Of a stretch of 30,623 bases of DNA, positions 276-29,752 are shown one piece after another. The stretch comes from Ectocarpus siliculosus (Eukaryota; Sar; Phaeophyceae; Ectocarpales; Ectocarpaceae), in NCBI GenBank assembly GCA_000310025.1, contig FN649737.1:3274815-3305437 (forward strand). Reading direction: 5' to 3'. How positions within the stretch are numbered: position 1 is the first letter of the stretch; each line of letters begins with the position of its first letter. The notes under the pieces are model-generated. The model was not told the DNA's origin, made no database searches, and saw nothing but the letters and a program-made list of their open reading frames with translations. Made by a program: the position numbers and the translations under genes.

Positions 276-2690
276 CAGTTTGGGAGAGAAAAGATCCCTG
301 TCCTCGAGAAGTGCGTGGGTTATGAATCCATGAAGAGTTATGAGCTGCTTTCGGATACGACACACCAATTGTGTGTTGCCTGTGCGAAGCGTTTTCCACA
401 AATGTGAATGGCACATGGTGACTCATGCACTCTCTCGTTCGCACCTTTCGCTGTTACGTTACCCACGGCACCTTCCTGCCTGTTGGCGTCTACAACTGGC
501 GCTGCATGCGGTTGTTACCACGCCTATTGTATAGATCATTGGCAGGCCACTGGGGGAAGCGGCAATGCTCCGAGTTGCGCACGAGCTGGAGAGTCGTCTA
601 GACTTCGCGTCGCAGGTTCCTGAGCGCGTAAGGGAGCCGCGCGCTGAGCAGTGTGTTCGGTAGCCCCAGTAGATGGGGCCGTGTGTGCTCGGTTGCTGTC
701 CCTACGTCTTTAGCAGTGTGCCCTCGTACAACGTGTATAAAGTGGGATAGGAAGGGGGTAATTGTGAAATTGTTGATTTGACTACTCTGTGAACACGTGC
801 TTGAAATTTGTTTCGTTGCAGCCCCAACTATTTTACTGCTGCTGTATGTTTTGAAAGGGGGGGGGGGGGGGTCTGCAGAAGTACTACATAAGTGAGGCCT
901 TGGTGTTGCAGTGCGCCCACCCAATGGAGGCAGCGGTACTTGCTGTTGGTAGGCAGAGTCAATTTTGATTTCCCTCGCGAGTGATTGGAATGGCGATCGC
1001 GGTGATACGCTGAACCCAGGATGTCGACCCTGGACCTACCGCAGGCACAATGTAACCGAAACAAATCCGGGCGGTACCGCAAGATAATGCGCGGAAAACG
1101 CTGACGGGGGGAGCACAGGGGGAGGAACATTTAACGTTCATTTTTGGAAATCGAAATGTCAATGAATTTGCGCTCCCGTATGTATTTACACCCAAGATTA
1201 CGCTGGGATTGTGTGCGGACCGTTCCCAACACTACGCGCGTGACCTCGCGTGACCTCACGCGAGGGCACTCTTGCCGCCGCCACGGATGCGATATCGGTT
1301 CTCTTTGTTGTTTTCCTTTCTCGGGAAACCACCGGCGTGTCATGCCGTTCCTGATCTGGAAGCCGTATTCTGGTGTAGCGCACCACCACCACTGCTGCCC
1401 TCCACAACCATGTCACTTCGGTGCACTACAGCACGTATCGGTTGCAGCGACGTTGCAACTGCTGAGTACGAGTACTGCTACATACAGCTGTGCGAAGCTC
1501 ATCGTAGCATTTTCTGGCCGACGCCGCGAACGCCATTTAGTCTTACCTGGCTGACGCCGCGAACGCATGTGTGAGAAAAATGAGTGCATGGTCATTTAGT
1601 CTCCTTAGGCTCACTCATCAGCAAGAAAGTAGTTGGCTTTCATGTAAGAAGAGTCGACCGCACAATACGCATGTACAGCTAGCAGTATACAAGGAAGATG
1701 CCAAGATTACCGCGACCGGTACCAGGCGTGTTCTGCGTGTGTGTATGTGTGTTCTCGTCCTGCTGTGCAACAATTTAGGTAGAATCAAACCTCCTGGAAT
1801 CACATCTCCATCCAAATCCATCCGGTCCATCCGTTGATGATGATGTGTGTGTTGTTATTATTCCTTAATGATCCGATGTATGGGTCGCGGGCAAACCTAC
1901 AGCCGGCAGGTGCGTGGACAGCAAAATTCAGTCTACATGCATTTCTGTAGGGACCAACACGATATTTTTTGGAGTTTTTGTGCGCCAGGGTGTCTACCGT
2001 GCACACCTACAGCATAGGTTCGTCCACAGCTTGGATTGGATGACTAATACGTGTAGTGTCGGCGCACTACTTGGGACTAAAGGTGCAATATAATCTGAAA
2101 ATCTTCAGAAACTATCGCTATTCTGTATTGATCTTCCCGGCTGTGACGTATGTTCCCCTACGCCGAAAGAGAGAAAACGTCTTGTTGAGCCTGTTACCCG
2201 CAGGGGAGATGTCCCTATATGCTGTCTGGGAAATCGTAGACATACAGGTACTTTCTGACGCTATGAATCCATTGCTAATCTGTCTCAGACTCTTTTCTAC
2301 GATAGAGATGGTTTCGTTGTGTCATAATAAGAAAAATAAAAAAAACGAGAGAAAGAACATCGCACAGCAGTAGGGAGATGGCGACGGACGGCCCGAGAGG
2401 ATCAGGTTCAACACATACACATAAGTCATGCCTATTTGTTGAATATCTTCCTCGTGCATGCATACAGTATGTGTACATATCGCATTTACACGGTGTGTTG
2501 CGCGACGAATATGCCGAGGAGGAGAAAGAGCGAAATATATGTATGCCGAGAATTAGAGAGAGAGCGAAAAAATCAACCACGGCTGAAGCCTTGGTTACAC
2601 ATTGATAGTAACTCTTTAAGGGCTAACCGATGTTGAACGTAGCAAGGCTAGGTTCTTCACGCGAGAAAGGCTAGGTTGTTCACCCCACAT
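276..2690. other. Non-coding stretch, no recognisable gene
   Basis: No frame on either strand shows a recognisable domain or coding-like composition, and open frames are short and overlap on both strands. Visible features are a poly-G run near 855-872, a perfect 22-bp hairpin at 1244-1265, a 14-bp motif (GACGCCGCGAACGC) repeated at 1520-1533 and 1553-1566, and an A-rich stretch near 2330-2350. A distant promoter for the downstream gene cannot be excluded. Confidence 0.6.
1244..1265. repeat. Perfect 10-bp-arm inverted repeat
   Basis: Arms CCTCGCGTGA and TCACGCGAGG are separated by CC. The left part overlaps a direct repeat of CGCGTGACCT (1237-1246 and 1247-1256). It could be a DNA hairpin or a dimeric protein-binding site. 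No neighbouring gene helps interpretation. Confidence 0.7.
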
Positions 2691-2692
2691 CT

Positions 2693-2719
2693 ACCCTAAC
2701 CCTAACCTAACCCTAACCC
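2693..2719. repeat. Short interstitial telomere-like tract (CCCTAA)n
   Basis: About four and a half units of CCCTAA are present, one of them shortened to CCTAA, flanked by unique sequence. Just upstream is a diverged tandem pair of a GGCTAGGTTSTTCAC motif (about 2647-2682). With only 27 bp inside a gene-bearing contig it is an interstitial tract, not a chromosome end. Such tracts often mark repaired breaks; that origin is inference. Confidence 0.75.
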
Positions 2720-2749
2720 ACGGCTGGTGTTCGATATCATACATCATGC

Positions 2750-3016
2750 CACTTTTGATTGGCGGATGGAGACCGTACGCCTCTCGTCCGAATCTTATCT
2801 TCCTCTTTCCAATCTGCGTTGCCCCCCCCTGTGGCCCCTCCGGTCCGCAGAATTCCTCTTTTTCCCTCGCTTTTGTTGTCCCTTTGCCCCCACAATCTCA
2901 TTCTTCCAAGCGCGCTCTCCAGCTCTCTGTCTCTTCGCGCCGCCCTGTTCACAGCTTCCCTTCGTTCGCCACAGCAGCAACCTTACTCCTGCTTCCCCCA
3001 AGGACCACACCAACAG
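2750..3016 (+). promoter_or_regulatory. Probable promoter / non-coding first exon of the Cys-rich gene
   Basis: The stretch is strongly pyrimidine-rich and ends in CAACAG followed by GTGAGC at 3017, a strong donor. A matching acceptor (GTGCGCCGCAG) ends at 3878, 19 bases before the ATG at 3898. I infer a 5' UTR exon ending at 3016 and a UTR intron of about 3017-3878. No TATA box is evident and the transcription start is unknown. The open frame across it (2746-3255) reads through the donor and looks like a composition artefact. Confidence 0.4.
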
Positions 3017-3897
3017 GTGAGCGATCCTGCCCCTGTCCGTTCCGTAGCTTGTGTAAGATTTCTGCGTTTGTATGGCACCGAGCCCCGAGTCCGGGAGAGA
3101 GAGATCGGGTCAGGTGGAGCGCCAACACCGCCGACGTAAAATTACGGGGAGAGGGAGACGGAAAGGATGCTAGTCTAGCTGGGGCTGAGCTTGGGCGTGG
3201 CTACCTGATGTGGAGGCTAGCCGCCGCGTGCGCCAATCGCGCCTCGCTCGACTAACGATATTTTCCGTTGGAGCAGGTGGAACGATGGGAGATCGGAAAT
3301 TGTGAAATTGTTGTTGTCGGGCGCGAAAATTGGATTCAGGGTCCCCCAGGAGTCCCTGACCATGGCGCTCCCAATGTCGAGCCACTGCAGCTGTATCTGG
3401 TGACTTGCAAGGGGTTTCAGTGGCGCGCAGGAGATACAGCGAGCCCATGCGCCTCGTGTCGTTTATTGGTAGAGCTGGCGTGCCGGTGTACATACTGAGC
3501 GCGGTCGATGCCGGAGGCAGCCAGCCAGCTGCCGTTCGGAACAGCTTTTTTCTTCCTTTTTCTTTTTCTCGACCTTTTCGGCTCCGTCTGCACACCCTTT
3601 CCGGAAAAGTAGCCGTTTATTGCTGCTGCTGTCTGGGGATGTGCCACGAGGATGTATGAGTCGCGGGAGCTCGTTCAACAGATTAGCGGTGGCGATAGAG
3701 ATAGACGCCTTCGTTCATGTTGATGGGAAGTGAGCAGCAGCACATCTTTTGTCAGTGTATTTGTGGTACGTGTGGGCAGTGCCGAATCCGAAAAAGGTTA
3801 AAATTCGAATTGTTCTCCCATCTCCGTTGGTGACCCAACCCTCCTCCCTTCCCAAACCGTCCGTTGCGTGCGCCGCAGCAGACAGCAGGTTATCGCA

Positions 3898-6800
3898 ATG
3901 ATGAACAAGATGAACTTTGCGGCGTTGCTGGGAGTCGTGCTGGCTCTGGCTGGGTCTGTCGGTGAGAAAACGTTGAATATGAATGCTGGATGGATGTGAA
4001 TGACCTGGACATGGGTTCTGCGGTACACAGCACCGCTTTTTTTTTGGAGCCAGCAGCAAGCCACGCTTCATTCTTCAAACGTCACACTCGAAAAAGAATC
4101 CTTTTCCCCCCCTAGTGTCTACTTGGCGCGCTCGTGCTTGCTCGAAACCATGACCTCTTGAGCGCGCGCGCTCGCCGACATCACTAGCATTGACCATCGT
4201 TGGGTATGATCACTGCCCCCCCCTAGTTGGTGTTGGTGAGCACGAGCGACACGTAGAGCTCGAAAATGCGAACGTTGTCGACGCACACACACAAGGTGGT
4301 GTTATTCCGTCGTCAGAACTCTCTTAAATAGCTCGTCCACCATCAATTGATTGTTGCTCCCGGAACCCAGAGCATCATGTACATACAATATACATATCAA
4401 TACTGCGTACGCCGCCACCCTCCTAGGAGACCTCACCAGCACAGCCGATGGGTGAAAAAATTCTATGGGGAGACATGATTTCGCGGGAGTGGCCGACAGA
4501 AAGTTTAAGTTTCGTTGGCCAGCTGCTCATTTTTTCAAAGCCGGGCGAGGGCCGAATACCCTGCAGATGCCGCCGACTCTTCACGTTCCTTCTAGGTTCT
4601 TCACCTGTGTCGTTCGCTGAGCTTACATGCGTGCGTGGGTATCCACCACGACGGCGGACGTAGTCCATCCCCATGCTTCACGTGCATGTAGGGTTCTGGT
4701 AGGGTTTGGGTTGCCAACGATCATTGACTCACCGGCTACATGTACGTTGAACAACAACCACCCCCTGTCTCACGAATTTACATGAACCTTCAGGCGCTCA
4801 GACTTGCGCCGGCGGAATCTCGGGCGTGGAGTCGACCTCCCTTGACGTGTGCTGCACCCTGGAGTGCGGGACTTGCGGTGGCGTCGGGTGCACCCCGGCC
4901 AACACCTCTTCGCTCACGGCGAACGACTGCTGCGCCACCGAGATCTCGGAATCGGGCGTCATGTGCTCCGACACCGGCGTTGCCCCTTGCATCCTCTCTA
5001 CCGGTGAGGATTGCGCTGCCCCTCGCTCGCTGTAGAGTACCTGCTGTCGAGAGTAAAAGCCTTCTGTTTTGATCCGTGCTTGCATGTTTGGTGTATCCAT
5101 TGCGCAAGTAGTTTGCGCGTCGTGGTTGCTAGAATTGTTCGATGGCGAAGCTGTTTGTTTGTGTTCCAATTTTTGCTTGCCCGTGACAATCGTTTTGTAT
5201 GCGCGCGTTGTGCGATGGAAGGCGCGACGTGCTTCATCCTCTGGTAACCAACACTAAGCTCTCGCTCTCTGCACACTGGAGTACCATCCTTGCTACATGG
5301 TAGTCGCCAAAAAAAAGGACAGTGCCTGTGACATATTTTTATTTCGTCACTGCTTTAAATGAATTACTATATCATAGGGCCTCTGTATCTGCCTTGGAGC
5401 TGAAATTCTGAGTTGTGCTTGGTCTTTGTCTACCACATGATCAGTGCTAATGACTTGTCCCTGTTGTTCCCGTTTTCTACACACGCTCAAAAGGCTTGGA
5501 ACACAGCAGAGCTGATCTACTCACTTGTTCGTTCGTTGCCTCTCTCTCCCGCTGTTCAGAGGCCGCATCCGCGGACTCAGTGTGTGACAACGGCCAGACC
5601 GGTGTCCAAGACCCTGACACGGACGTCTGCTGCCCACTCGAGTGTGGCGAGTCCTGCGGAGGGGAGGGATGCGGAACCATCCCCGGTGTCGACGCCAGCC
5701 AGTGCTGTGCCTCCATCATCGAGCAGTCGGGCATCGTGTGCGGAGACGGCATTGAAGCGCCCTGCACTCAAGTAGCAGGTGTGGAGCAGTTCGTCAACAT
5801 CTGAAAGTTTTGATGACTTGCAGCTGCGGTTATTCGTTCTAGTATGTACTACGCGTCGATCGGGTGTACAGGCTATCTACAGGTCGTCACATTTTTTAGT
5901 TTCATGTCGTTGCTGCTGTATGACTTGCTGCTACAACTTCGTTTTCTTTACGCGTTTTATTTGCTACGCGCGTCATTCGAGAGTAGCACACAATCGAAAA
6001 TGTGCTGCACCATGGGTGTTTCAAAATTTGCACCCGTTTGACTCACCAAACACACTTGCCCCGGTTTTCAATTTGTTTCTCTTCTGCTGCTCCCTTTGGG
6101 CAAACAGTCGCTGTCGCCGACTCGGTATGCAGCAACGGCTTCCCTGGTATCGAGAACGAGGATGCGACCGTCTGCTGCGACCCTGCATGCGTTGTCTGCG
6201 GTGGCTCCACCTGCGGGAACGTGGCGGGCCTTACCGGCGCCGACTGCTGCACCGGCACCATCATCGCCAACGACGAGCTCTGCTCCGAGAAGGGCTCCGC
6301 CCCGTGCGTCGTGGACCCTCCTGGTGAGTCAGCTGAACACTGCTGGTCAATAAAGCCATTGCTGCTTTTTGCTGGACCCTCTTCCGTAGATCTGATGATG
6401 ATGACGCAGCGAGGGGGATTAGCTGCCGGTGACGGCTTGCTTGCCCACGATACCGCACGTCCCCGTTCTCGCTACTCCTTGGAGAGAACCACGTCGTGCC
6501 CACGTCATCCTGCACGATAGGGTTCGTTCAGTTTTTGGGCTGTACACTCCAACCTCGATTGTAGTAACATCTTGGTTCTAACCGACCCACCCACACGTCC
6601 TTCTTTTTCCTGCACCTCAGAGGTGACTGCCTCCACTTGCGCCAACGGACTTGCCGGCGTTTCTTCCGGATCGGTCTGCTGCGCCGAGGTGTGCAACGGC
6701 GTCTGCGGCGGGGAAGGCTGCGGGGACATCGCCGGCACCAACGGTGCTGAGGACTGCTGCTCGGCCACCATCCTGGCCGCCAACATCGCCTGCGTTGACA

Positions 6801-7267
6801 CCGCTCCGTGCGTGATGGTCGAAGGCACGTTCACCCCCGCCCCGGCTGTGGTCCCGACCGTCGCCGCCACCACTACGGCTCCCCTCGCCCCGGGAGAGAC
6901 TGTCACCATGGCGCCTACCCCGACATCGCAGACCGCCGCCCCCACGCCCGGCTCCCGGGACCTTGACTTCGGCACCGGCGTGCCCACCCCGGCTCCCACT
7001 TCCGTCGAAGAGGCTGGCATGAGCTCGGCGCCCACCGCCGGCTCGAGGGACCTCGACATTGGCGAAAGCATGGCGCCAACGGCTGGCTCCAGGGACCTCG
7101 ACCTTGGCACCGCGGGGCCTTCTGCTCTGGGTGACACCATGGCCCCGAGCACCGCGCCCCCCGGCGCGGCGACTGCCGGTTCCGCGGCTCTGTCGGCAGG
7201 CAGCGTTGTATCCGTCGCCGCTATGGCGGGCGGCATGTTCGCGGTGCTCGCGGCAACACGCAACTAA
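3898..7267 (+). CDS. Secreted/surface protein with four ten-cysteine modules and Ser/Thr/Pro tail
   Basis: Exons are 3898-3961, 4794-5003, 5560-5778, 6108-6323 and 6621-7267, totalling 1356 nt and 451 residues. All four introns are GT-AG and phase 1. Residues 1-23 form a signal peptide (hydrophobic core LLGVVLALAG, likely cleavage after VGA). Each later exon opens with one module (about residues 23-92, 93-165, 166-237 and 238-305) with the same ten cysteines: C, then VCC, C, C in a CGG context, C, a second CC, C, and a final PC, so five disulfides per module are possible. Residues about 306-420 are rich in Ser/Thr/Pro/Ala, suiting O-glycosylation, and carry three copies of GSRDLD[FIL]G. The C-terminus (about 425-448) is hydrophobic and ends in a very short tail, suggesting a membrane or GPI-type anchor. 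I associate such CC..C..CGG.GC modules with stramenopile secreted proteins, but biochemical function is unknown; wall or adhesion roles are inference. ATG 3898 is immediately followed by a second ATG. Confidence 0.85.
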
Positions 7268-9259
7268 CATGCGGCGCAACCCAAATTTTACAAACAAAAT
7301 CGGCGGCATGGAACGAAGCGGGGACGGACTCGGAACGGGAGGTCTCTCTCTCTCTTCTATTCCGGCGCCCAAGATAGTTTCCCCTCACCCCGTGTTGTTA
7401 TTTGTTGTCTCCATGCGTGTGCGTTTGCGTCGTTGTGTGTTCTGGTTGGTGTGTTCTGACCCACTCCTGCTGTCGTACCAGAGAAATCGGGGTGTGTCGG
7501 TATTTTTTCCCGAGATTTGTGTGGCATTTTTTGTCAGGCAAGGAAGCTTGCGTCGGAAACGTCCTTGGATGTCGGCGAAGGGGTTTCAAGCTTGATGGCG
7601 GGGGGAGTGGGGTAGGGTACTTGAGCGGCCGGGGGCCTCGAGAGAGATATGGGTCTGGGTTGTTGTTGACAAGCTTCCATCTTGTCGGCATGATTGCCAG
7701 CCATGTGTTTTGAGGCTCTCTTTGAGTTGTTTCATGGGTATCGGGGTGGGAGTTCAACTAGGCATGTACTCTTCTGTAGCTTGATGAGTCGACCAACGAT
7801 AAACTGGGAAGTAACCAGCAGTCGTCACAAGAGCAGTGGGAGTCGCGTTGCATAGCATTCGAGCGCCGGGTCTCTCGGCTAGAGAACCACGCTTTGTTGG
7901 CTTGAGAGACTCCCGTGAGGAGTGTTCGGCATCCCCCGTTTATAGAGTCCGATGCCAGCCAGCTGACCTTGAGTCGGGCGGTGTGGCGGAAAGGAAGAAT
8001 GGAGAAAAACCAAATTGAGGGTGGATTCTTGATTTCCGTAAAGCTTTGTTTGTCTATGAGCTCTTCGTTCGTCCGGGCATGATGATTGAATGGGAGGTTC
8101 TTTCTCGTACAGCTATGCATAGCTGTCCGCGAGAGAATCGATCGAGTACCAACGGGGCTTGAAATTCGTGAACGTTCGGAAAACGGTTCCCTTGTGGCAC
8201 CAATCTTTGTTTCGTCGGATATATGGGGATTTTTCGAGTGTTGTTGGGTAGGCTAGAGGAGGTTTCCGATGGGAAACTTTCCTCGCTTGTTCTAGTTGTC
8301 CCCCATCCCCAAAAAGTTTTATTGGTAGTTGGTAGTGCGTTTGAGGCTAACAGTCGCGGTATTTTCTGTTTTCACGTGTTCCCTGTACCCCGGGTCATTC
8401 GACGAGGGGAGGCAAATTCGCAAGACAGACAGGCGTTACCATTTTCTGGCCTGTAGGCTGTTCCACGACCAATTTCTCAACTTGATTCTATCGTCTCGAT
8501 TGGCTGCTTTGCCAGGGACGTTCGATTTCGTTTTTGGGGACTGGATTTTTTTGTTGGAAAGGGTTGTTTCTGCAATACACGAGTAGCCTTCGATTCCGTC
8601 GCTACAGTAGTTCCATCAGTCTTCCAGTCTTTTGGGGTCTTCAACCGCACACTCGTCACTTTTTTTGTATTGCTTTTGTCTCTGCGAGTAGGTGTATGTG
8701 CTTTAGCCCTGGACAGCTATCGTTCTTGTCTTCACTATTTCTGTGTTAATGCATGCCCCAGGGGGCAGGCTGGGTGCCTCAACCACGTACTTGTAATTTT
8801 CATCTTGTTGCTTTGTTCAGCTGGCCATGGCCACTCCGTGGTTTTCTGTCGGAAGCCTCGCGATAGTCGGGCGGGCGGAGAAGGTCGTGTACGCGGTTGT
8901 TCGCATGTATGTGCGGGGAGCGACGATGTATTTTTATAGCCCGCAGTCGAGAAGAATAGATTCTGAGCGGTAGTTTAGTGACTAAAAATATAGCTCGGTT
9001 GCATATTAAAGCGAATTACGTTTTGGACGTTTCGATATACCAGACCGGTATTATTGTAGGCCGCGTTGTTGTTTTTGTTTCTTCCAAGAACGAGAGCACG
9101 GGATCTAATTATTTGGTCGAAGAAGATAATATTGTCTTTCTTGATGTGGAGATGAAGATGAAGAGGAGGCGTGCTGGCGGGAGCAGGTCTCCCTGCTACA
9201 CGTTGAAAAACAAACATTTCGTTCTGCTGCTTGTCGAACGATGTGGTCCTGGCATCATG
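7268..9259. other. Non-coding region, probably long 3' UTR then spacer
   Basis: After the TAA at 7265-7267 the + strand becomes T/G-rich with no coding signal in any frame. I infer a long 3' UTR for the Cys-rich gene in the first part; its end cannot be placed because no clear polyadenylation signal is visible. No RNA gene or repeat of note was seen. Confidence 0.5.
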
Positions 9260-10383: not shown

Positions 10384-11925
10384 ATGGTGTGCTTGATTTG
10401 CACACGGTTACCTACTTGCGCTGGAGGGCTGGCAACACGGTGCATCATGCTTGTTTCGGTTTCCCAGCAGTCATTGCGGGCGCTGGAATGAAAGTAAACG
10501 CGCGCATGGTTCTGTGGCCGACAAGTGTAGGTAGTGTAGGCCCATTCATGCATACGATGTGAACCAGAGAGTTCCTTGCTTCTTCTGTTCTTGCCGCACA
10601 ATGTGGGACGATCTGTTTCAGGGAACATGCATCCGTGAAGTTCGGTTTCTTTCCTTCCAGATTCCCCCAACAGATGTCTTCTTTCGTTCCCGCTGGTTTC
10701 ACTTTCATTCTGTTGGCAAACAGCTGTCTCCTAGTTCCAGTCATGCATCAACAGAAGAAGAGGTGTCTGACGTAACCCTCACGGTGCTGTGTGGAGACTG
10801 CAGCACAGACACACCCGAGGACTATCCCGAACAATGTGTCATTGTGGCAGGTCCTCTGTGCTGTTAGGTGCTACCACGATTTTTCCTACGACTTGCAGTT
10901 TTTTCTGTTGGTGTACTTATTTTTCCTAATAAAGTTTTCTGCACAATTTCACGCAAATTTCCCCTCTCGGTCCATGATGCAGAATTACAAACCTTAACCT
11001 TCGAACAGCACCGAACACTCCCTGCGCACTGCCAAACCGGGATCATGCGTCCGCTCTGGCTGCTGTCCTTACAGTTTCACACGCGTTGGCTAGGTTCTTT
11101 AAGCCACCGGCGCTGTGTGCACTACAGATGTAGATACATCAAATGCTAGGTTCTTTAAGCCACCGGCGCTGTGTGCACTACAGATGTAGATACATCAAAT
11201 GTGAGAGCTCTGTGGGAAGCTGGGTCATTGGTGGATAATATATAAACAAAGGGACTGTCAAACTAAAAACCAACGAGCGCACGCACGACTGGGCTTTTCG
11301 AATTCGCACAGCGCAATACCATCACGTATTCAGTGCCGAACTTCGCCCCCGCACATTAGAACCCCACGATTCCTGTGGCACACGTTATCCCTGTGCTTCA
11401 TAGAGAAGCTCACATGGAATCTACAGCAGCAGCGAATTGATGCGCCCGGTACAACAGCCATAAATGCGAGTGAATCGATAACCGAGACCCATACATCTAC
11501 AACAACACTTAAATTAGTAAAAATTGTTGTTTTTCAAAGACCGTCAGACGCCGTCGCCAGCGGGTGTGTGCATCTTCGTGGTGGCACTTCACGATGTTTC
11601 AAGGTTGGGATTGGCACAGCTAGATGATCAGTGCGATGCCTCGTGAGCGTGTTCAATCCTCGTCAGCCTCAGCGTCCAACTTCCAACAAACGTGCGTGCG
11701 CGTGCGACGACGTGAAGCATATTTCGAGAACAATATTATTATAGCTGGCTCTATCTGCGTGCAGGCTCTATCTGTGGTGAGTTGTTGGATCTTTGATCCC
11801 GTCATTTGCGTTAACGGTACATTAGCAAGCCTACAACACCTTCACACGTCGTTGCTAGCATCGCCAGATCTGCGGTGCCGTAGCTGCAACTTCGATCGCG
11901 AACGACGAAACTTCTTCTTCCGTCC
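10384..11925. other. Intergenic region upstream of the glycosyltransferase gene
   Basis: No gene is recognised. It contains a 56-bp tandem duplication (11089-11200) and, just after it, an AT-rich TATA-like string (ATAATATATAAACAAA, about 11235-11250). That string is about 680 bp upstream of the ATG, so it could belong to the promoter only if there is a long 5' UTR or a UTR intron. The open frame at 10559-10867 shows no known domain. Confidence 0.45.
11089..11200. repeat. Exact tandem duplication, 2 x 56 bp
   Basis: Units 11089-11144 and 11145-11200 are identical. Each begins GCTAGGTTCTTTAAGCCACC and ends ACATCAAAT. Perfect identity implies a recent duplication or a local assembly artefact. 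The CTAGGTTCTT core also occurs singly near 2648 and 4592. Confidence 0.9.
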
Positions 11926-14900
11926 ATGGAGGGCATCCAAATGTGGGGAGTGCTGCTACCGATCACCTCGCGTGGAGTGGGAGGGGAGGGTGTGCAACCT
12001 CTCTCTGATTTGATGGTTGCTCTACAAGGGTTCTTGGAGGTACGTGGGCGTGCTTTGGCCTAAAAAGTCGTGGAGACACTCACTCCTGAAATCATCGACA
12101 AGGCGCAGCGCAAAGCCCACGTTACACGATGAGAGGGAGTGGTGCCCGTGCTCTGACGTATCATCGTCCACTCTTTGATTGCCCGTACGGCGGCAGCAAT
12201 TTTTTGGGTCCTGAAGAAATGCACGTGAAACAAGCAATCGACGTGATGAAGTGTTGGTGCCGACAGCTACAAGCCACGGCACTTCGTTCACTCTCCCAAC
12301 AAAATCAATCGTGTTTACACCCGCCCGGCCGCCCCCCTCCTCTTGCCCCCAGGGCGTCCTCAGGACGACTGCGGAGGCAGAACGCTCAGGCGGCGGAATC
12401 AAGGTCTTGGTCGGTATCGACGAAGGCGACGCCGTGCTTGACAGCGAGGAAGGGAACGCCGCTCTCACTCGAGCGTTTCGCGGTGAGCACGACTTTGAGA
12501 TATTTCGCGTGAAGACTTCGACCCCTGCGCTCGAGCAACCCTCTGGAGATGTGCCCGATGCCCCTACCGAAGGCAGCAGCGATGAGGAACAACTTTTGTC
12601 GCCGTCGGCAGGTGAGCCGTTTCACATCAGGGACGGGTGAGAATGCTGTCTACGTTGTCCCTTTTTACGAAAATATCCAAATGCTGTTGTTGTGGAGTAT
12701 GCTTGCTCCTGCGCGCATGCACATGTGACAGGCATGCATATAGCCTACTTACGTGCAATGATCCGTTTCTGCCGTTGTTTTCTTTCGAATCGCTTCATTA
12801 TTTCTTCGGTTTCTAGGCTACGTGTTGGGGAGAGAGACGCACGAAACGCTCATCGTCTCTCCGGCCGCGTTAGCTGCGAAGGCCGGCGTCAACTCTTACA
12901 AATCCATCTCTCTCCCCACAAATACTAGCCGGGGGACTACGACTGCAACCGCAGGAGTCCCAAAACTGACCAAGTCCTCAAATGGTACACACCATTCTAC
13001 AACACCCACATCGAGGTCAGTTTCTGGACGACTACCGAATAAGTCAACTATGCGTTCCCCATACGGTCCCCTCCCCCGGCTGTCTCGATACTATCCTGCT
13101 GCCGTCTGTAAGTTTCCGTGACACTCGCCGCGAATCCTCTACATTGTTTCGCGCATACGGCTTGTAGGCATTCGACCTCCACTTCTCTTCTCTCTGAATC
13201 ACTCGTTCTGCGATGTCTCCGCCCGATGCAAGAGCCGTCGCGCCTCCAATTCGCAACGAGTGCAACACGTACTCCTGGGGGTTACGCCCCGACTTCGCTA
13301 CCACTTCTCTGACTGCACGGAGGGCAGCACTATACCTCACTACTCTCACTGCTCTTCCACTACGGTACGAAGCCAACGGTGCGGAGTCAGGCAACGTCGC
13401 ATGACACGACAATAGCTCCACCACAAGAGCCAACGCGCCGCCGCGTGCTCTCACACCTGACTGCGGTCCGGTGACTTCGTCTCGCGTACGAACCCGCATG
13501 TTGCCTTTCTGCTCTTGATCGGCCTTGTGCCCTCTAAACCTCATTTCGACACGGTCTGCTCTACGATAGTGACTAAATCTAGTTGCGTCTCGCCGGCAAA
13601 CAATGCTACGTCCGCCCTCGTAAGACAGTGTGCCTCATGCACCCTGCCCGCGTCATTCGCGACCACTTCATCAGACCGTGTGATGAAGAGATAGGACAGG
13701 CACAGACACAGCCACATCACTCTGCCCCCTTCCCCCCAGTTCTGCCTTGCGCTTTCCCCGTCCAGCGGCATACACCAAGACACAGGCAGGCGCACACGGC
13801 GTACCGTCCCCATAGCCACGTGATTCCTCGTCATCCCCCTTAGCGCACATTTCAACATCGGAGACGACAACTCTAGCTCGACCGAAGCTTTCCAGCCTAT
13901 GAAAATGTTGCACAGCCGTGAGTTTTCCGAATATTGTACTCGCTAGATTACCCTCAGACTCGAAACACCAGGCTACGAAGTCTATCAACTCCCACACATG
14001 AAGGTCCCTGGCACGTTGCCCTAGAAACTTGGGCTTCTCCGTCAGCCTCCGAAACGTGCACCAAGAGTTGAAGCCTGACGTGTAAGTCCTTCTGGACAAC
14101 TGAGTGCTCGACGAGCTGGATGCCAAGACGTCGGTAACAAAGTCCCGTCCTGCCTGTCCCAGGTCCTGAACCTGCTGATTGCCCTGGGGCCAACCTCGTG
14201 TAGACCGGCGTGCTGCCGTTCGATTTGGCCGCATGTGCGCTGACAACCGAGGTAGCCCCCCCCCGCCACGCGGGAGAGCCCACACCCCTATTTGTCTTTC
14301 CCGTGGGTGAAGAAGTCAGCGGCCTTGGGTCTCGCGCCGCCCTCGCCAGCGGCGCGCGCCTCTCCTCCGCACCCTCCCCCGTTGCCGTGGCCAACGCTGC
14401 GACCACGATCTTCGACCCGGAAGTTTGAGAGCGTGTCGAGCGATGCCGCCACTTTCTCTGTCACCAGAACGCCTTTGCGAGGCAAGGATTGCCACTCCGG
14501 CTGCGACAGTTTTGCAACTGCCGGAGGCCGTCCCAGGATGAACCACGCTTTTACCCGGCGGAGGTCCCCCTGCATCCGCCCCCTATCCTTTGCCGCAGCC
14601 TTAGCAGCCTCGGCGCTGGGTACAGCGGGGGCCCGAGCAGCCGGTGGTGGGGCGGTTGTGCCCACCAGTTGCGCCTCCCCCTAAAGGCCAGGTCCTGTTG
14701 CTTGGGTGGCGATCAGGTCGTCGATCGATGGTTGAAGCTGCTGGCGATCGCCGGCAGCCTCGTCGCGCTCCCGCTGCAGCTCCTCCCTCAGGCCGTCCAC
14801 CAGCCCGCGGAGAGGAGCGAGCTCAGTCTCATCAGCGGGGGGTCGCCGCGGGTGCCTGTCCCTCGCGCTCGCGACGAGGATACCGCTCGACGCCTCGCGG

Positions 14901-17290
14901 GAGTACGTGACCCGCTGCGCGTCGAGGGGTGAGCCGTCGAGCTCGCCAACGATCGCGCGGTAGGCCTCCTCGTGCGTGGTGTCGAGGGTGTCGCCGCCCG
15001 ACCCCGCCCTGCTTGCCCGGCCGCGGCCCTGCCGCTCCGCGTGGAGGCCCGTGTCGGCATCTGGTGACGGTTGGAGTCGTATAAGCAGCGACAGCCCCTG
15101 CGTGGACTCGATCACGGAATGACACCCCCAGCTATAGACTACAGAAATAAATCCAAACACCGTGACCCTGGGTTTCCGATAGAAAATGAAGCCAAATTCT
15201 AATTCGACTGTCACAAAATAAACACCAGTTTATTCTATCTGCTCGACGAACAAACCTTCCTTTACGTGCGATGATCCGTTTCTGCCGTCCTAATGCGCTT
15301 GCTGTCGCCTGCAGCACCCAGAGTACACGAAGGCCAGGTGTGCCGCGTCTGGCGCAAGCTCGCCCAGGAGGCCTTCCGGCAGGGAGCCGAATACACCGTG
15401 CTTTTAGGAGACGACGTGCGCCTTCTCTCTCCCGGGTGGATGGGTCAGATCCAAGACGAGTTCAAGTCGCTGCAGCGCGAGCTGTCCTCCCAAACGTCGG
15501 CGGCAACGGAGGGCCTCGGGCGCCCCTTCGTCGACCTCTTGCCCCTCGGATTCGGCGTGGTGTGCTTCACGGACGAGCTGTCACCCGGGTTTCCTGGCTT
15601 CCCGGTGCTGCACCGGACGCACGGCGAGATTTTCCCCGAGATCTTTCCTGAGAAGTTCGTCAACCAAGATGCGGACCCTTGGATATTCGAGGTACGCAGC
15701 ATGCATGCATGTAACGTGGGAGAGGGAACGGGAAAAAATCGAAACGGTGCATGGTGGAAACCGCCATAGGGGTGCATAGAACACACACGTGTGACTGACT
15801 GGTGCATGGGATTAATGTTGCGACATGATGCTTGGGTCAGAGTCCTCCACTCCGGTATGATGTCGAACATTGAAGATTGCTCAGGAGGTGAATGAACGAA
15901 ACTTGAAGAGGATTCTTGTGAAAGATGGTCCATATTTTGTGTGGTCACGTGACGCCGTCGCTTTGTACGAGGGGCCCGTTGGAACGAAAGGGTGCCGTTG
16001 GGGTCTGTCTACTCGAACCTCCAAAGAGCGATAGGGATTGTTGAGGAACCCGCACGGTCCTGGAGCGACGAGATTAACGCGGCGTGTCGACCAACTGCTA
16101 TCTAGTTGTCGATGATAATTAATATAATTTCTCGTCGCACATTGCTCCGGCGTAAAGTTAACAGAGCACCCAAACATTTTGTGCGCCCAGGGGGGGACGA
16201 AAATAAGCCATGCGCCCAGTCGTTTTTGATGGGCCAAGAATACACCCCATAGAGGGAAGGAAAAATAATCTGCTCATTATATATCCTGCCCTACATCAGG
16301 TTATTGAGCCCACCAGTTGGCTGGGCATTGCACCGATTATGTTTGTACACTCTGCATACTCATTCCTTGTGCGATGGGCTGGGCCACGATTCCGTCGACG
16401 TCGAAGACATCCTGCACAGGTATGGCCCCTGCGCCCATTGTATACTTCGCCTTGCTTGGTCGCTGAAGAAATCAAGCTTGATTGATGAAAGCACATCCAA
16501 CCGTCGCGTCATTTCAGGTCTACAACCGCTTCGGGGCCGCCCGGCTGTCGCGGACGGCCAGGCTCAAGAACACGCTCGGCGGGTGCGAGGGAGACGCCGC
16601 CGGCCGCAGCAGCAGCACCTCCTCCTCCTCCCTCCCGGCACAGCAACGCTATCGGAAGGTGGCCGTAGACTGGAAGTCCGAAATGCTCGGACACGGGGTA
16701 CAGCAGGCCCGCGCGTGGCTCGAGTCTCGCCCGCCCCTGCTCCAGCTCTCCCCGGAGGTTAATATCCGCCAAGGGGACGGCGGGCGGCGCCTGCGGCGCC
16801 GTTTCGATCGGTTCGTTGTGCTCGATGTTCTGGTGCCGACGGTCCGGTGCGTACGAGGGTGATGATCGGTAGCGGTCATCTCTGGGAGTGGCTCGCGTTG
16901 TGCAGCTTGTTGTTTCGAAGGTTTTGGGCATGTTCCCCGGGACATTGATTTCGGACGAGTACAACCAGTGTTGTTTCTGTTTCGCGAAGATTTGATTATT
17001 CTCCAACAGTTATCCGCAGCTACAGAAGAATGTCATTCATTTCAACCACCTGTTTAATGTCAATCGTCGTAGTCCTCCAGCGACAACGCCCATTGTTGCT
17101 GCTTCTTGGCCCGCTTCATCGCTGCCAATGCACCTTTCTAGGCGTACGACGCTGCTTGGTGGCAGCTGCTGTTGTGATACTTGTGAAGAACGAACAATAA
17201 TCGTGTTTTTTCGTCGAAAAAACAAATCCTTGGATTACATTTTCGTTTTTCGTGTGTACAATGAATCCTCTTGCTTGTTCTTCGTCTTTG

Positions 17291-17321
<31 letters not shown>

Positions 17322-18602
17322 TTGCGTTAAACCCTGGAACACAAGGCTGGACGATCTCTCCATCCTCACGGCGATCTGTTCGTTGGAGGTTCCCCCGCAC
17401 ATGCGAACGATGTTCATCATCATCGTCGACGACCCCACGATCGCACCGAGTAGGATAAGGACAATGGCCAATGAGCTTCAACGAGCGGCGACAGCAAACA
17501 TTGTCCGAGTGCGGCAGAACCAGGTGCGGGCTGTTCGGGGAAAAAACAACTACATACAGTAGGGTAAGCACACCTTCCTCTTGCGTGAGATAAAAACGGG
17601 ACAACATGTCAAACACAGTTTTATCTGAACAACGCGACTACTCTTGAATGCAGTAGCACCCCGTCTTCGGGCACAACAACATTTCCCAATACCATACTAG
17701 TGGATCAATGCCACCCCCCCCCTGCCCCAGGGCAACTTCCCTACGCATGATTCCACCTACTACGGAACGTGATGATGGTGATTGCAACGGTAGTGCATTG
17801 TAGTGGGGGGAATATGGCGAGGAGCACGTTGGGTGAAAAGGGGCTCAATAACTCTCTCGATGTCCGCGCAAAACGTTTTGTTTCACCCCTTCGGAAGCAT
17901 AGCATACACGTTGAATAGATTCCCTTGGTAGACAAGGCAAGAGCAAACTGTTTCGCATTGTTCATGTTAATACCGTCTTCACAAAAGAAAGAATTTTCTC
18001 TGTTTCTTTAATATGGGCTTTTGAAGGCGGTCGAACAATGGGTGCGCGAACTATCTATGTGGTCTGTATGTGCAGCTGCCTATCTACGTCCGCCAGATGT
18101 TTTCAACGTATCGGCGCGAGTGTGTGCCGTACAACGCATGAGTTAATGTAATGGAGCAACTAGTGTATGAGCGCTGTATGAGTGTTGTATGGGCATGACA
18201 CGGATATTTTGTGTTTTCGGTGGTTGTTGTGACTAGGATTCCAACCCCCGTTCTCACCCTCGACTTGTGAGCGCGGAACGTGGGCTAGGTATGAAGAGGA
18301 TGAAACATGAGATGCAACAACTAACTGTGAACGACCTAGCAAGGAGCAGCGGACCTGCTCCCTTCCCTTTTTTTCCCTTGTTCCTCCATAACATTTACCC
18401 CATGACCGACGGTTTGTGGCGCGTCAACCACTCGACCTTAACCTTCAGGAGAACATCGGGGCGGGCCCGTCCCGCAACCGCGCACTCCAGGAAAGCAGCG
18501 CCGACTGGGGCCTGTTTCTCGACGACGACGTCAAGCCGAAGGGCGACATTCTCGCCGAGTATGGGCGGCTGATCATCAACACGGTGGAGAGCGAGGGGTG
18601 CG

Positions 18603-18642
<40 letters not shown>

Positions 18643-20757
18643 CAACGGCCGCGAAAAGGTCAGCGCCGCCACCGGCGAAGGCGCAAAGAGCGGCAACCAC
18701 AGCCACGCCGCCTCAACAACCACATCAACAACAACAACAACAACCTGTTGCGGCTTCATCGGGATGACCAAGTTCCCGCCCGCCGAGACCCCGCTCCACC
18801 GCGCCGTCGCCCTGAGCGACGTCACCCACATGTACGGCATCAGCGGGGAGTTGTCGCACCCAGCTTGGGGCGTCACCGCCAACCTCCTCGTGCGGTTTTC
18901 GTGGCCGGGCAAGCGGCGCGTGATCACCAAGTTCGGGGACCAGTTCCCCAAGACCGGGGGCGGAGAGGACGTGGATTTTTGCCTCAGGTGAATTCGTTTG
19001 GCGGAGGGTGCTAGCATCCCTTTGCTTCTACGTCCGTCCCGGTCATGTTGACCGCGGTTCACGCCAGCCTTGCACTTTGCTTGCGATTTTCTTTCATTTA
19101 CTCCCGAGTGTACGAGTGTTTCCGACCGGTAGCTTTGACAATTGAAACACAAGTCGAGTGGAGAGTGAGCCAGAGAGAGAGAGACAGAGAAGATAGAGTG
19201 TGCCTTCTACTTCCTGCGTGACCCCGAATGATGCGCCAAGCAAACACCGAACAGCAGTGTGGACTGGAGCCGACAGTAGACGGGACAAAAACACATGTAC
19301 AACACAACCAACACATTCCCCCCTCGCACCCCTGTCCGGTTCAACGAGTGCAGCCACGCCAAAGACACGGGGGGAAGCTTCCTGACGGCGCCTGAGGCCG
19401 TCGTCATCCACCCGTGGAGGCCCGGGGGTCGTTTTAAGACCTACAGGCAAGGAAGGGCGTGGACCGCCTTCGCGAGATTCACGAGGTTATGAGGAAATAG
19501 AACAGGGAGGGGGTACGCAGAACCTATTCCCTAACCCTCACTCAACTTCCCCGATTGCATGCATTATCCAACATGTTTACTTAGTAGAAAAAACTGTGTT
19601 GTTTTCACCCCCCCAGGTGTGCGAGTTATGCCAGTTTTTTTTATGTCAAGAAACCTGGATTTATGGTACTCCAAAGTTCAGCACATGCTGTGGTTCGTCG
19701 ATGGAATGGTGTGTATAGCGATGCGACTGAAACGAGAAGAGCACGGAAGATCTGCCACTTGACGCGTGGTGTGATGAGAACCATAATCATCTCGAAGAGA
19801 ACTTTGCGTGGCTTCGGGGTGCCTTGGTGTGTGAGCTACAACACGTGTTGCTCTGGCCACGCTTCAAGCCTTGCTTCTGGGGCACTATCGACTGCTGCTG
19901 CTGTTAACTTGCCAGTGGCGGGATGTTGGTTTGGTTCCCAGGGAGGAACTCACGGCTTGTCACACGTTGTTCGCCAAGACTGCAAGGTATACACCCCCGC
20001 CCCCCCGCCCCGTCTCTCAATTTCGGCAACTCGATCCACGGGTCGAATCCTACCCGCGGCTGGCTTCTTCCCTGGCAGGCGGTTCTTTCGTTGGAGTTTC
20101 GGCGACGGGCAGCTGATGGACCTTCATCCTCAGTTCTCGTACCGGAGCTACCCGAACGTGGCCGAGTCGATGCTCCTCACGCCGCTCTACCTCACCCTCC
20201 TCTACCTGGCCCCGCTCGCCTTCGAATTCTTCTCACGGGACGGAAGCGGCGGCGACGGCGGCGACGGGGAGCTCTCGTGTTCGAGTGGCGATCTCCCGCC
20301 GCCTCCATTGTCAACGGTGCTAGCGCTCCCCCTCCAGCAGCTTGCCCTCATGCTGCTTGTGGTTCTGACCGCCGAGATGACCTGCGACGTGCCTCGCAAC
20401 ACGTGGGGCCGTCGCTGGAGCGAGCGTCTCCCGAGCGCTGGTTTCTTCCGCCGGGTCATGCCGGCGGCTGAGGCTTCGTGCGTCATCACCGCGCTGGAGG
20501 TGGGCCGTCTGGCCGGCCAGTGGTCCAGGGGAGGGCTAGGACTACAATCCATTTTTTGTCGCCGCAGTGGCGAAAACATGAACGGCAGCGCCGGCGCCGG
20601 GGGCGGCATCGCGGGGAACTTCCGCCGGCGCTTCGACTGGCACTGTGGGAGGCTGGCCGGGGCCATCGAGGGCGAAAAGAGGCGCGCTCTCAGGAAGCTG
20701 TTCGTTTGGCATGGGCTCTTGCTGCTGATCATGATGTGGACACGAGCTGGTTCTTGA
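11926..20757 (+). CDS. Two-module GT-A (GT2-like) glycosyltransferase with C-terminal membrane segments
   Basis: Exons: 11926-12039, 12353-12611, 15315-15691, 16518-16846, 17346-17523, 18449-18987, 19354-19446 and 20079-20757; 2568 nt, 855 residues, all junction phases agreeing. Module 1 (about residues 6-300) has VLLPITSRG, KVLVGIDEGD and LLGDDV (GDD 156-158), then PGWM and a histidine-rich acceptor-like segment. Module 2 (about 350-640) has VLVPTVR, FIIIVDDP, the N-x-G-A..RNRAL motif, LFLDDDV (DDD 444-446, metal/nucleotide-sugar binding), GGGEDVDFC and a VIHPW loop, as in GT2 enzymes. Hydrophobic segments lie at about 661-681 and 708-727, with another at 838-849, so an endomembrane enzyme is likely. 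Donor and acceptor sugars are unknown. ATG 11926 is chosen because an in-frame TAG lies at 11881; an upstream coding exon cannot be excluded. Oddities are a transposon in intron 2, a (GGC)12 run coding Gly 472-483, a Thr-rich run after it, and a likely GC-AG last intron. Exon 7 boundaries are the least certain. Confidence 0.8.
12749..12775. repeat. Left copy of 27-bp direct repeat (attL-like)
   Basis: It begins TTACGTGCAATGATCC and ends TTTCTGCCGT. It differs from the copy at 15262-15288 only at the A/G position after ACGTGC. It lies inside intron 2 of the glycosyltransferase gene, about 270 bp beyond the recombinase 3' end. Confidence 0.8.
13044..14285 (-). pseudogene. Decayed tyrosine recombinase (Crypton-like)
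   Basis: The protein is spread over three minus-strand frames: 14285 to about 13865, 13870-13541 and 13544-13044. The first has an N-terminal core-binding-like part (RRTYTSGFNSWCTF, then a FVAWCFE region). The second carries LSYLFITRSDEV, where the first catalytic Arg is expected. The third has the HxxR box as HSLRIGG (about 13262-13251) and the expected nucleophile Tyr in AYKPYARNN. The usual G-R-W box reads EKW. At least two frameshifts (near 13868 and 13545) plus the altered box indicate it is inactive. Tyrosine recombinases cut and rejoin DNA to move elements as circles. Sequencing error could explain a frameshift, but two frameshifts and a stop in the upstream ORF favour real decay. Confidence 0.75.
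14288..15214 (-). pseudogene. N-terminal/upstream ORF of the Crypton-like element, with one in-frame stop
   Basis: Frames 15214-14681 and 14665-14288 lie in the same phase, separated by a single TAG at 14683-14681, so they were probably one ORF of about 300 codons. The sequence has a charged helical stretch (LREELQRERDEAAGDR) followed by Ala/Pro-rich and basic sequence. It precedes the recombinase on the same strand and may be the N-terminal part of the same protein. I recognise no domain. GC content is high, like the recombinase part. Confidence 0.5.
15262..15288. repeat. Right copy of 27-bp direct repeat (attR-like)
   Basis: It begins TTACGTGCGATGATCC and ends TTTCTGCCGT. It lies 26 bases upstream of the exon 3 acceptor (15314) of the glycosyltransferase gene and 47 bases beyond the start of the element's long minus-strand frame. 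Confidence 0.8.
17291..17320. repeat. (CTG)n microsatellite in glycosyltransferase intron 4
   Basis: About nine to ten CTG triplets lie 25 bases upstream of the proposed acceptor (CACAAG, ending 17345). The intron lacks a conventional pyrimidine tract, so the CTG run may serve as one. In another frame it would give a Cys- or Ala-run ORF, which is not coding. Confidence 0.85.
18605..18640 (+). repeat. (GGC)12 coding microsatellite in glycosyltransferase exon 6
   Basis: Twelve in-frame GGC codons give a polyglycine loop shortly after the DDD motif. A Thr-rich AAC/ACA repeat follows at about 18715-18745. The segment between the DDD strand and GFIGMTKFPP is therefore a low-complexity insert within the catalytic module, likely length-variable and flexible. 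Confidence 0.9.
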
Positions 20758-26791: not shown

Positions 26792-29752
26792 ATGCCCACA
26801 CTCGACATCGGAGGAACGTCTGTGGCTTTCCCATTCAATCCATACGACTGCCAGCTGGAGTATATTGGCGGCGTGCTTGAAGCTCTCAATGGTTCGGTAC
26901 GTTCCTCGTGCTGTTTTTTTTTTCGGGAATTTTGAATTTGTGTGCGGATTCGTCGACTGCTGCCGTAGGTTGCGCAAGATATCACACCCCCGAGGCCTAT
27001 TGCTGTCGAAGCTCCGTTACTCTGCAGCAGAAGTAGAGGAAGTGCCGAAAAGGACGGCATTGGGTCTTACTGATTGAGAAACTTCCGAGAGCGTGTCATT
27101 TAAGTTTGGCTCCCTCTTCGTCGGTGAAGTAGTAAGCGAGCTTCCATATATTATCGATCGTTCCAGGGGGTGTGGTATCTCATGCAACCCATGTACTGCC
27201 TACTCCTCCGTTACAGTACATAGCGTGTACTGCAGTGCCAGCCCATGAGATAAGAAACATCTATCTTGAGCGAGACCCAAACCTTATTTCGTCCCCACCA
27301 CTGAGCAAAGGTTTCTTTGCATGTAGGAAATAATGTAGCGCCGGCCGCTATGCTAGCAGCATTTTTAATCTGAGCCTCGGTTTCTGACGAGCATAATGCA
27401 TATTTATCTTACAACGAGTGTGCCGGCACTCTCTACAGTAGTAGTGGAGCAAGCCCACATGCCACACCAGTAGGGCGGGAATGTCCACTTCATCGGCTGC
27501 ACATAAAATCAGCAATCGTTCGAACAGCAGTTGCGTGCGCGTTTCGCGCTGCCTGGTCATAATCGCGACACCGCAGCGTAAGGTGCGTGCCCACGATTTA
27601 CTTCAAATTAGGGACAGCGCGTCGTGTAGCACACCCGTGGGTGTCAAAGGGGGACATGCTTCGCGAAGTGTATGCATGTCCAGAGGATGTGGCCCCAGTT
27701 TCAGTGTAAGGCCGAGTACTGCCATAGGATTTGTGACCGGCATTACACTGGGATGCTGACGGCTAGTACTGGCCTATATTTTACAGTACTTGGAATTGGA
27801 AGTATGCGTACAGATTATAATGAAATGTTTCCTTACCCTGGCTGACAAAAGGCATGATGCTTGGCTAAGTATACACCCTCCGGCCTCTTGAATGTATCGC
27901 TCGTCCCTCAATCGATCCCGCCTGACCCCGTTACGCGTTCTTCTTGTCTTAGTCTTATTCGGCATGTTCATTTCGTCTTGTTCCTTTCGTCTTATTGCTT
28001 TCGCCTTATTCCTTTCGTCTGGTTCCTTTCGTCTTATATACTCTTACCGCTTCATTCATTTCGTCTTATTCCTCTTGTTGATTTCGTCGTTGCTCTTTCG
28101 TCTTCTTCCTTTCGCTTTACTCCTCTCGTATTTTTCCTTTTGTATTATCTTGCTCTCATCCCATTCACTTCGTCTTATTCCTTTCGTCTTACTCCATCGA
28201 GCAGAAGAATGCCCTCCTGGAAAGCCCGACCGGTACGGGCAAGACGCTATGCCTACTCACGGCCTCTCTCGCTTGGCAACAACGGAATTCGGCCATGGTG
28301 GCCTCCAAGGTAGAAACAACGACCATGTTCTCGAAGCGAAAAAACATAAATAGTCTGTACCACAGGGCCTAAAACGAAGCAGCGTTGGTGTGCAGTATGA
28401 ACCGTTCAGAGCAAACGGGTAAAAGACGAAGTATGAACACCCCCGTTTTGTGGTACAAGAAATTGTTTTGTGCCAGAGCCCAGCGCGCGGGGCGTACATA
28501 TGGCTCACATCCTCGAGAGGACGAAGGCAGATCGACCACATATGTACTATCTGCATATGCATAATACTGCTTCACTCCGTGGTTTATTTACTCTGTCCTT
28601 TTCCATCCCATCGCTTGACAATTTCACTTATCCCCTTCTGAGGGTTCTCGTCGTGGACCCCCCCCCCGGCTGTCCCCCCCCCCCCGCTCGCACGCCTAGA
28701 GCGGGGACTAGCCAAACAAGCATGAAGGAAGGGCGCCGCCCGGCTGTTGGAATTGACGTTCTCCCTATTGGGAGTAGGAACGTCAGTGAGTCAGAGTGAG
28801 GTAATCTGCCTCCAAGGGTCGAGTGATCATATGTTACCATCCACGGCGAGGACCAAACCGCTATACGCCTCCCCCGTCCCATGCACGCAGCCTGCCCCTA
28901 CACAGCTTGCGTACGACGAGCGACCGGTCACCGACCTGTCCCGCCCGCGACACGAGCAACAGCCGTACCAGGAGAACAAGCCTGCCTTAGCCGCGGCCAT
29001 GCCCTCCGTCATCATCTACGCCTCGCGCACCCACAGTCAGCTAGGCCAGGTGCGCTGGTCCCAGGGTGGTGGCTGTTTCGTGTTGGTGTAGGTGGTGGTG
29101 GTGTGGCTGTGGTGACATCGGGTAGTCGCGGTGTGCTTGGGGGGCACCGTAGGCGGACAGGGCACCACCCACGCCCCGTTCATTGGGTCGGTTTTCGTAG
29201 TCCGATGTATGGTTGTGGAACTCCTTGCCGAAAGTAGACCCCAAGGTGCCGGAAGTAGAACGAAAGGATGTATGTACACGGCTGCAACAAGGCCGAGAGG
29301 TTGGGAAAAAGAAACGGTGAAGGAGAAATTTGTCCGCGTGACCCCCACACTTGAGTCACACGGAGCAATAACCGGCACCGAGTGAAACACCACACGAAAA
29401 TCGGAACTAATGAACACAAAACGAAAGCGTTCGCGTAGTATTTCTGTGATTGTTGTGTATGTTCTCTACAAAGCAAACCAACCCCCTTTTCCAAAAAACC
29501 AAAAAGGTGGCGAACGAGCTGAAGAACACGGTGTATCGCCCGAGACTCTCCCTCCTGGGCTCTCGCGACCAGCTCTGCGTCCACGAGGAGGTTTCCCAGA
29601 TGAAGGGAGGCGCCAAGAACCACGCCTGCTCGGCCCTCGTCAAGGCCAGGCGTTGCAAGTACCACCGCGGGACGGAGGACATGGTGGAGCGGGCGGGGGG
29701 GGGGGGCGTGGTTGCGGGAGGGGGGGGGAGCGGGCCCCCTGACCAGAGCACG
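26792..29752 (+). CDS. RTEL1: RTEL1-type iron-sulfur DNA helicase, 5' part only
   Basis: Exons: 26792-26896, 28205-28309, 28891-29049 and 29507-29752, all phase 0; 205 residues so far. The N-terminus (VAFPFNPYDCQLEYIGGVL) matches the start of RTEL1-class superfamily 2 helicases. Walker A is SPTGTGKT with Lys48, the same residue number as in human RTEL1; motif Ia is IIYASRTHSQL. VANELKNTVYRP and LGSRDQLC open the Fe-S domain. Cys147, Cys164 and Cys173 fit the first three cluster ligands; the fourth would lie in the next exon. RTEL1 unwinds D-loops, G-quadruplexes and telomeric T-loops in the nucleus. Relatives XPD, FANCJ and DDX11 are less likely given the N-terminus. Exon 2 could begin at 28202, adding one Gln. 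Exon 3 start (28891) is chosen for its pyrimidine tract; 28906 is in phase too. Exon 4 ends in a Gly-rich stretch with a GTGAGG donor at 29753. The remaining exons lie beyond the contig end. Confidence 0.82.
26963..27194. repeat. Foldback/MITE-like element, copy 2, in helicase intron 1
   Basis: Inverted arms 26963-26991 (CCGTAGGTTGCGCAAGATAT...CACCCCC) and 27166-27194 (GGGGGTGTGGTATCTCATG...) enclose about 174 bp. The arms match those at 23839-24012 with a handful of differences, so the two are members of one small dispersed family. It lies within intron 1, 66 bp after exon 1 of the helicase gene. Confidence 0.6.
27940..28195 (+). repeat. Degenerate ~13-bp-period pyrimidine repeat (TTTCGTCTTATTC)
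   Basis: About twenty diverged units of a TTTCGTCTTATTC motif run up to the acceptor of helicase exon 2. As a 250-base polypyrimidine stretch it may strengthen that acceptor. It creates two overlapping long open frames (27861-28313 and 27892-28353) of Phe/Leu/Ser-rich sequence that are not genes. Confidence 0.8.
28660..28690. repeat. Poly-C runs in helicase intron 2
   Basis: Two long C runs (about 28661-28670 and 28675-28685) flank CGGCTGT. Length may be inaccurate because of sequencing through homopolymers. They lie in the intron between exons 2 and 3 of the helicase gene and have no coding effect. Confidence 0.7.

Follow-up and report, generated by a model that had tools for sequence, protein, structure and literature searches.

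The 30,623-nt window of the Ectocarpus siliculosus genome analysed here (G000:C12:3274815-3305437) carries a recombinase-type element inside a predicted intron, with a 27-bp direct repeat lying against its ends. The question raised by this locus is whether the 27-bp repeat is a recombination site shared by related elements or the product of one insertion. A sequence-only reading of the window had proposed the former, taking the repeat for the att core of a Crypton-like element. To address this question we compared the locus with other copies of the element in the genome, surveyed the flanks of those copies, and weighed the routes by which the repeat could have arisen.

The intron and its 27-bp repeat

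The repeat is present as described, with copies at 12749-12775 and 15262-15288 that enclose 2.5 kb. The two copies are identical at 26 of 27 positions, with a single A/G mismatch, and are spaced 2,513 bp apart; neither side can be extended by even one base, and the number of such repeats expected by chance within the window is 0.00. The features of the locus are as follows.

12612-15314, plus strand: host intron, 2,703 nt, GTGAGC...TGCAG, open frame across the splice
12749-12775, plus strand: left 27-bp repeat copy, locus-specific, occupying the place of TTTATT in normal copies
12776-15261, minus strand: element, internally deleted copy of a multicopy recombinase-type family with split direct repeats (blastn against genomic copies)
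12776-13007, minus strand: B repeat, single copy here, two in larger elements
13044-13634, minus strand: putative recombinase remnant, C-terminal part containing the motifs HSLRIGGAT, W and Y (motif reading)
13541-13942, minus strand: putative recombinase remnant in a different frame, with FITRSDEV (motif reading)
13671-14315, minus strand: putative recombinase remnant, N-terminal part
15090-15092, no strand: junction of an internal deletion, for which the larger copy L003 has about 4.4 kb (positions 3193-7637), 1-bp overlap
15091-15261, minus strand: A repeat, inner side truncated, with exact AACCTTCCT at the outer end
15262-15288, plus strand: right 27-bp repeat copy, locus-specific, adjoining the right end of the element

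The donor GTGAGC at 12612 and the acceptor TGCAG ending at 15314 enclose the element, as the sequence-only reading had stated, and a splice joining 12611 to 15315 is in phase 1 and keeps the reading frame open. Subtraction of 2,513 bp, the element plus one repeat copy, leaves an intron of 190 nt. The exon 3' of the intron matches a paralogue on contig C16 that has an uninterrupted frame of 514 aa (46% in one comparison; 41% over 121 residues, E 2e-27, in another). The exon 5' of the intron gave a weak match to the same paralogue, 27 residues with an E value of 0.065 (0.013 when searched alone), and was not reported among the matches when the joined exons, with the join corrected, were compared with it. 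Because the 5' exon resembles the paralogue only weakly, the sequence comparisons support splicing of 12612-15314 without proving it. The intron flanks joined without the element, searched in assembly G000, matched this locus only, with no second copy.

The host gene at 15315-18991 contains LLGDDV and FLDDDV motifs, which we take to be possibly glycosyltransferase-like; its tested exon returned a Pfam match below threshold only. Also within the window are a perfect tandem duplication near the intron (56 bp, 2.0 copies, 100%, 11089-11201) and a degenerate 14/28-bp tandem array, TTCCTTTCGTCT, at 27965-28195.

A multicopy family with split direct repeats

Normal copies of the element have the left terminus TTTATTTTG and the right terminus AACCTTCCT. 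A query with the left part of the window copy gave 40 scored matches of 332 candidates, 39 of them besides the window, and 37 of these 39 start at window position 12775, one starts 1 base earlier and one, on C67, starts 16 bases earlier. With the right part, 40 of 308 candidates were scored and the matches stop at 15261-15270. Other copies thus begin and end at the inner edges of the 27-bp repeats and have other flanks, which indicates that the element extends from one repeat to the other and that the repeats are foreign to those copies; the proposal that the flanks of other copies would share the 27-bp core is not borne out. Genome-wide, the left end has 284 matches (129 + 155) at up to 3 mismatches and the right end 284 (137 + 147) at up to 2, counts that include the internal B1 and A2 repeat copies; a left-end pattern that includes TTTATT has 288 (133 + 155). 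The first 100 matches listed for each end are all exact. The canonical left end is matched exactly by 94 of the 100 listed B ends whose core is exact; three others (L081, L082 and L083) keep TTTATT and are altered in the bases directly following, one base of the terminal hexamer is changed in L084, L080 has one changed or two lost, and the window copy alone is without TTTATT.

All six larger copies inspected (5.4-8.2 kb) have split direct repeats (blastn comparison, L003 rows of 250 and longer). Their order is B2-A2-B1 ... A1 in the orientation of the window and A1 ... B1-A2-B2 along the recombinase frame, and the internal junction reads CTTCCT-TTTATT. The B repeat is about 239 bp and the A repeat about 267 bp, each present twice. 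Similarly, 34 pairs of B ends lie 560-580 bp apart, accounting for 68 of the 100 listed. Two A and two B repeats were found in 8/8 elements selected for previously seen paired ends, namely the six larger copies, L004 (3.3 kb) and a copy on C19 that carries a nested insertion. When repeats of one element are compared with each other, 7/8 elements show 0-4 substitutions between their A copies and 0-2 between their B copies, and the C19 copy shows 15 and 5, respectively; the medians between elements are 1.5% for A and 0.8% for B, with a minimum of 0. Furthermore, L014, L015 and L017 are practically identical across 2.3 kb while their flanks differ, so the family has been mobile recently.

Shorter copies are also present. 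L071, read over its full 333 bp, has canonical ends, carries a single B and a single A repeat and is not flanked by a duplication, which indicates that deletion by itself does not generate the 27-bp repeat. Copies on C16, C18 and C10 appear single as judged from their listed exact ends. Solo B-A units, which may be likened to solo LTRs, measure about 540-570 bp, have ends that are canonical or nearly so, and occur at L068 (C14:3550528-3551300) and at L002/L005 (C180). At L077 (C10:4224480-4224620) the right end of an element directly adjoins an inverted A repeat of a second copy.

The window copy aligns to L003 positions 874-3193 and then 7637-7810 (blastn against fetched genomic copies, rows of 60 bases and longer). 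Missing from it are TTTATT at the left terminus, the B2-A2 unit on the outer side and some 4.4 kb of internal sequence; the canonical right end is retained. With the outer repeat pair and this interior missing, the window copy mimics a small Crypton. Splicing was rejected as the origin of the 4.4-kb loss, since the deletion junction has no GT-AG in the sense strand. None of the 39 other matches scored (of 405 candidates) spans the junction.

The coding content of the family was read from its better preserved members. L015 and L016 each contain a stop-to-stop frame of 533 aa, whose R, HxxR, W and Y motifs we take to be the signature of a tyrosine recombinase; FITRSDEV in the 13541-13942 remnant of the window copy presumably marks the first catalytic Arg. 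Searches in Pfam, PHROGs and PDB sequences gave no tyrosine-recombinase match, and an AlphaFold2 prediction, at a pLDDT of 29.5, gave no usable fold. The frame is a putative recombinase, named from its motifs. Of the decayed minus-strand recombinase described in the sequence-only reading, the HSLRIGGAT, W and Y motifs were recovered and profile support was not. The broader description, a mobile recombinase-type element that sits in an intron and directly adjoins the repeat on either side, agrees with our results.

Neither a reverse transcriptase nor an RNase H was detected in six frames of the L014 interior or in the sense frames of L060, where searches returned just HAMP (E 0.56) and DUF4964 (E 0.17); in other parts of the genome RVT_1 was readily detected, with 150 matches scored among 1,041 candidates. 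A methyltransferase domain, a feature of PAT and DIRS only, likewise had no Pfam match in the L014 interior or L060. At C19:2013600-2031200 (L093, L094), a family copy contains a nested LTR retrotransposon with LTRs of about 300 bp that are 97% alike, large open frames and RVT_1 inside; the reverse transcriptase between the two A ends there belongs to this nested element, and the copy was rejected as a reverse-transcriptase-bearing member of the family. In L060 (C23:1351872-1358330), a cysteine/histidine motif, which we assume to be CCCH-like, lies at 2074-2460 of the reverse complement, upstream of the recombinase frame; this stretch is missing from L003 and from the window copy. A search for homologues in viral contigs gave one pattern match and none confirmed.

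Target sites and the origin of the 27-bp repeat

If the 27-mer were a docking site for the family, it should recur with the element. In the 189-Mb, 492-contig genome, the first 26 bases of the 27-mer have 2 matches at up to 3 mismatches, both at the window locus, and the reversed sequence of the same query, searched in the same way, has 0. The 27-mer is also absent from all flanks of other element copies inspected. Confinement to one locus, against 284 matches for each element end, rules out a shared att core, and the earlier proposal of a recombination core common to other copies fails on this point.

A survey of flanks points to a different target. None of 37 surveyed normal copies has a long flanking duplication: their best flush repeat scores 7 (7 bp), the window scores 22, and 1,332 mispaired flanks used as a control score up to 10. 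The sample consisted of early-listed places with recognisable ends and was not random; of 39 places read, L064 (with an internal junction in place of a right end) and L002 (boundary 4 bases off) were omitted, and L063, L067, L072, L073, L005-L009 and L012 lie outside the survey. Ends were paired by proximity, and for C6, C10 and C22, which had two candidate right ends, the outer one was used. The six bases past the right end match TTTATT at at least 4 positions in 16/37 copies, and the same test at seven further offsets gave 1 to 6 of 37. The mean match to TTTATT is 3.46 of 6 past the right end, 1.3-2.0 at the seven offsets and 1.46 in the left flank, and the second base past the right end is T in 35/37 copies. 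The right flank of the window copy, TTACGT, also has T at the second base but matches TTTATT at only 3/6 positions. These patterns suggest that a 6-bp TTTATT-like stretch, rather than the 27-mer, is the likely recombination core. The 27-bp repeat, a host duplication flush against both element ends, looks like the scar of a single insertion and not the general docking site of the family.

Taken together, the results lead us to conclude that the window copy is probably a degenerate, internally deleted copy of a split-direct-repeat recombinase-type element, and that the 27-bp repeat is probably host DNA duplicated at this single insertion via a staggered break. Normal copies would arise when the junction of a circle, CTTCCT^TTTATT, recombines with a T-rich, TTTATT-like target in the manner of a tyrosine recombinase, an exchange that would leave no long duplication. 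At the window locus, the right end would have been joined canonically, while the left end would have lost TTTATT and been end-joined to the target strand about 27 nt away. Fill-in of this stagger of about 27 nt would then give the two 27-bp copies, a private target-site-like duplication of about the same age as the insertion. We infer the circle, the staggered break, the end joining and duplication on entry from a repeat found at a single locus, its exact abutment on the element, the missing TTTATT, the internal deletion, the lack of a long duplication in the surveyed copies and the T-rich 6-bp target; the canonical right end may be luck.

The divergence of the window copy bears on the age of the duplication. 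Of 2,051 sites with a base present and in agreement in at least 8/10 compared copies, 31 (1.5%) are changed in the window copy alone, a rate that may include changes already present in its source copy; among the compared copies the rate is 0 to 3.6%. A rate of 1.5% predicts about 0.8 differences between two 27-bp copies, and 1 is observed, which fits duplication at entry and is no proof of it.

Several other routes to the same arrangement were considered. The element may have inserted canonically, and a later repair event may have replaced TTTATT at the left end by 26-27 bp copied from the right flank. This templated insertion accounts for a loss at the left terminus alone, and it agrees with a canonical right end at which the 27-mer starts exactly; we regard it as unlikely, since the copied tract would have to start precisely where element and host DNA meet, at a distance of 2.5 kb, a coincidence that duplication at entry does not need. 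Rather unlikely, too, is a tandem 27-bp duplication that pre-existed in the intron and received the element between its copies. The two copies are indeed non-identical, and the 56-bp tandem duplication shows that such structures occur nearby. However, the element would have had to land exactly at the copy boundary, flush on both sides, and the divergence of the copies matches the age of the insertion; we therefore rank this explanation as less likely than duplication at entry.

Insertion of an RNA copy by LINE-type machinery, with a long target-site duplication and loss of the 4.4 kb by splicing, appears very unlikely. LINE-type target-site duplications can be this long. Furthermore, LINEs are common in Ectocarpus according to Table 1 of PMC12477816. 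Against this explanation, the 4.4-kb stretch that was lost is not bounded by GT-AG in the sense strand, neither poly-A nor a simple repeat is present at the 3' end, and the 5' end is an exact DNA terminus. Finally, the 27-mer as the att core of a Crypton-like element has in its favour that it adjoins both ends of the element without a gap, but it has no third place in the genome and lies in none of the flanks inspected, normal copies use a 6-bp T-rich target, and the family has long split direct repeats. We consider this origin extremely improbable.

Duplication at entry through a staggered break has a possible parallel in the retrotransposon DNA captured at double-strand breaks in mouse zygotes, as reported in PMC4516963. 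The window copy may be likened to those events in its trimmed end, internal deletion, 1-bp overlaps and duplication of unusual length, but it differs in that its right end is exact.

Relation to Ngaro/PAT-like elements and Cryptons

Two groups of known elements invite comparison with the family. Ectocarpus is described in PMC12477816 as having 15 Ngaro families (DIRS/Ngaro making up 2.45% of the genome) and 5 PAT-like families, with intronic elements common and shorter; the word Crypton occurs 0 times in the main text of that paper. DIRS/Ngaro-like elements in Ectocarpus are also mentioned in PMC3145265, and split direct repeats are described in PMC4157794, PMC9210276 and PMC8547959. The family resembles the Ngaro/PAT-like elements of the DIRS order in its split direct repeats, A1 ... 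B1-A2-B2 along the recombinase frame, and in that this frame, recognised by motif, points to the internal repeats in L003, L014, L015 and L016. It differs in that no reverse transcriptase or RNase H was detected in L014 or L060. In addition, the window copy differs in having one B and one A repeat, as does L071, together with a long flanking duplication.

With Cryptons, in particular the CryptonS elements of oomycetes and a diatom, the family would share a recombinase-type frame and the lack of a detected reverse transcriptase, and the 5-6-bp terminal repeats of those elements may be comparable to its imperfect TTTATT. In contrast, the family has long B and A direct repeats, each present twice, whereas Cryptons as described in PMC3212892 have no long direct repeats. 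The Crypton identity assigned in the sequence-only reading is thus at odds with the larger copies. These comparisons illustrate that internal deletion can make a split-repeat recombinase element look like a small Crypton, and a private duplication can now be told apart from the likely integration site, which is TTTATT-like.

A further reading, unlikely but conceivable, is that the family is a recently mobile, recombinase-only DNA element with Ngaro-type split repeats, in between Cryptons and YR retrotransposons. Its repeats would serve a circular DNA cycle without reverse transcriptase, and the window copy would be a broken, shortened circle that entered with a 27-nt stagger. If such a recombinase-only family were autonomous, split direct repeats would cease to be diagnostic of retrotransposition.
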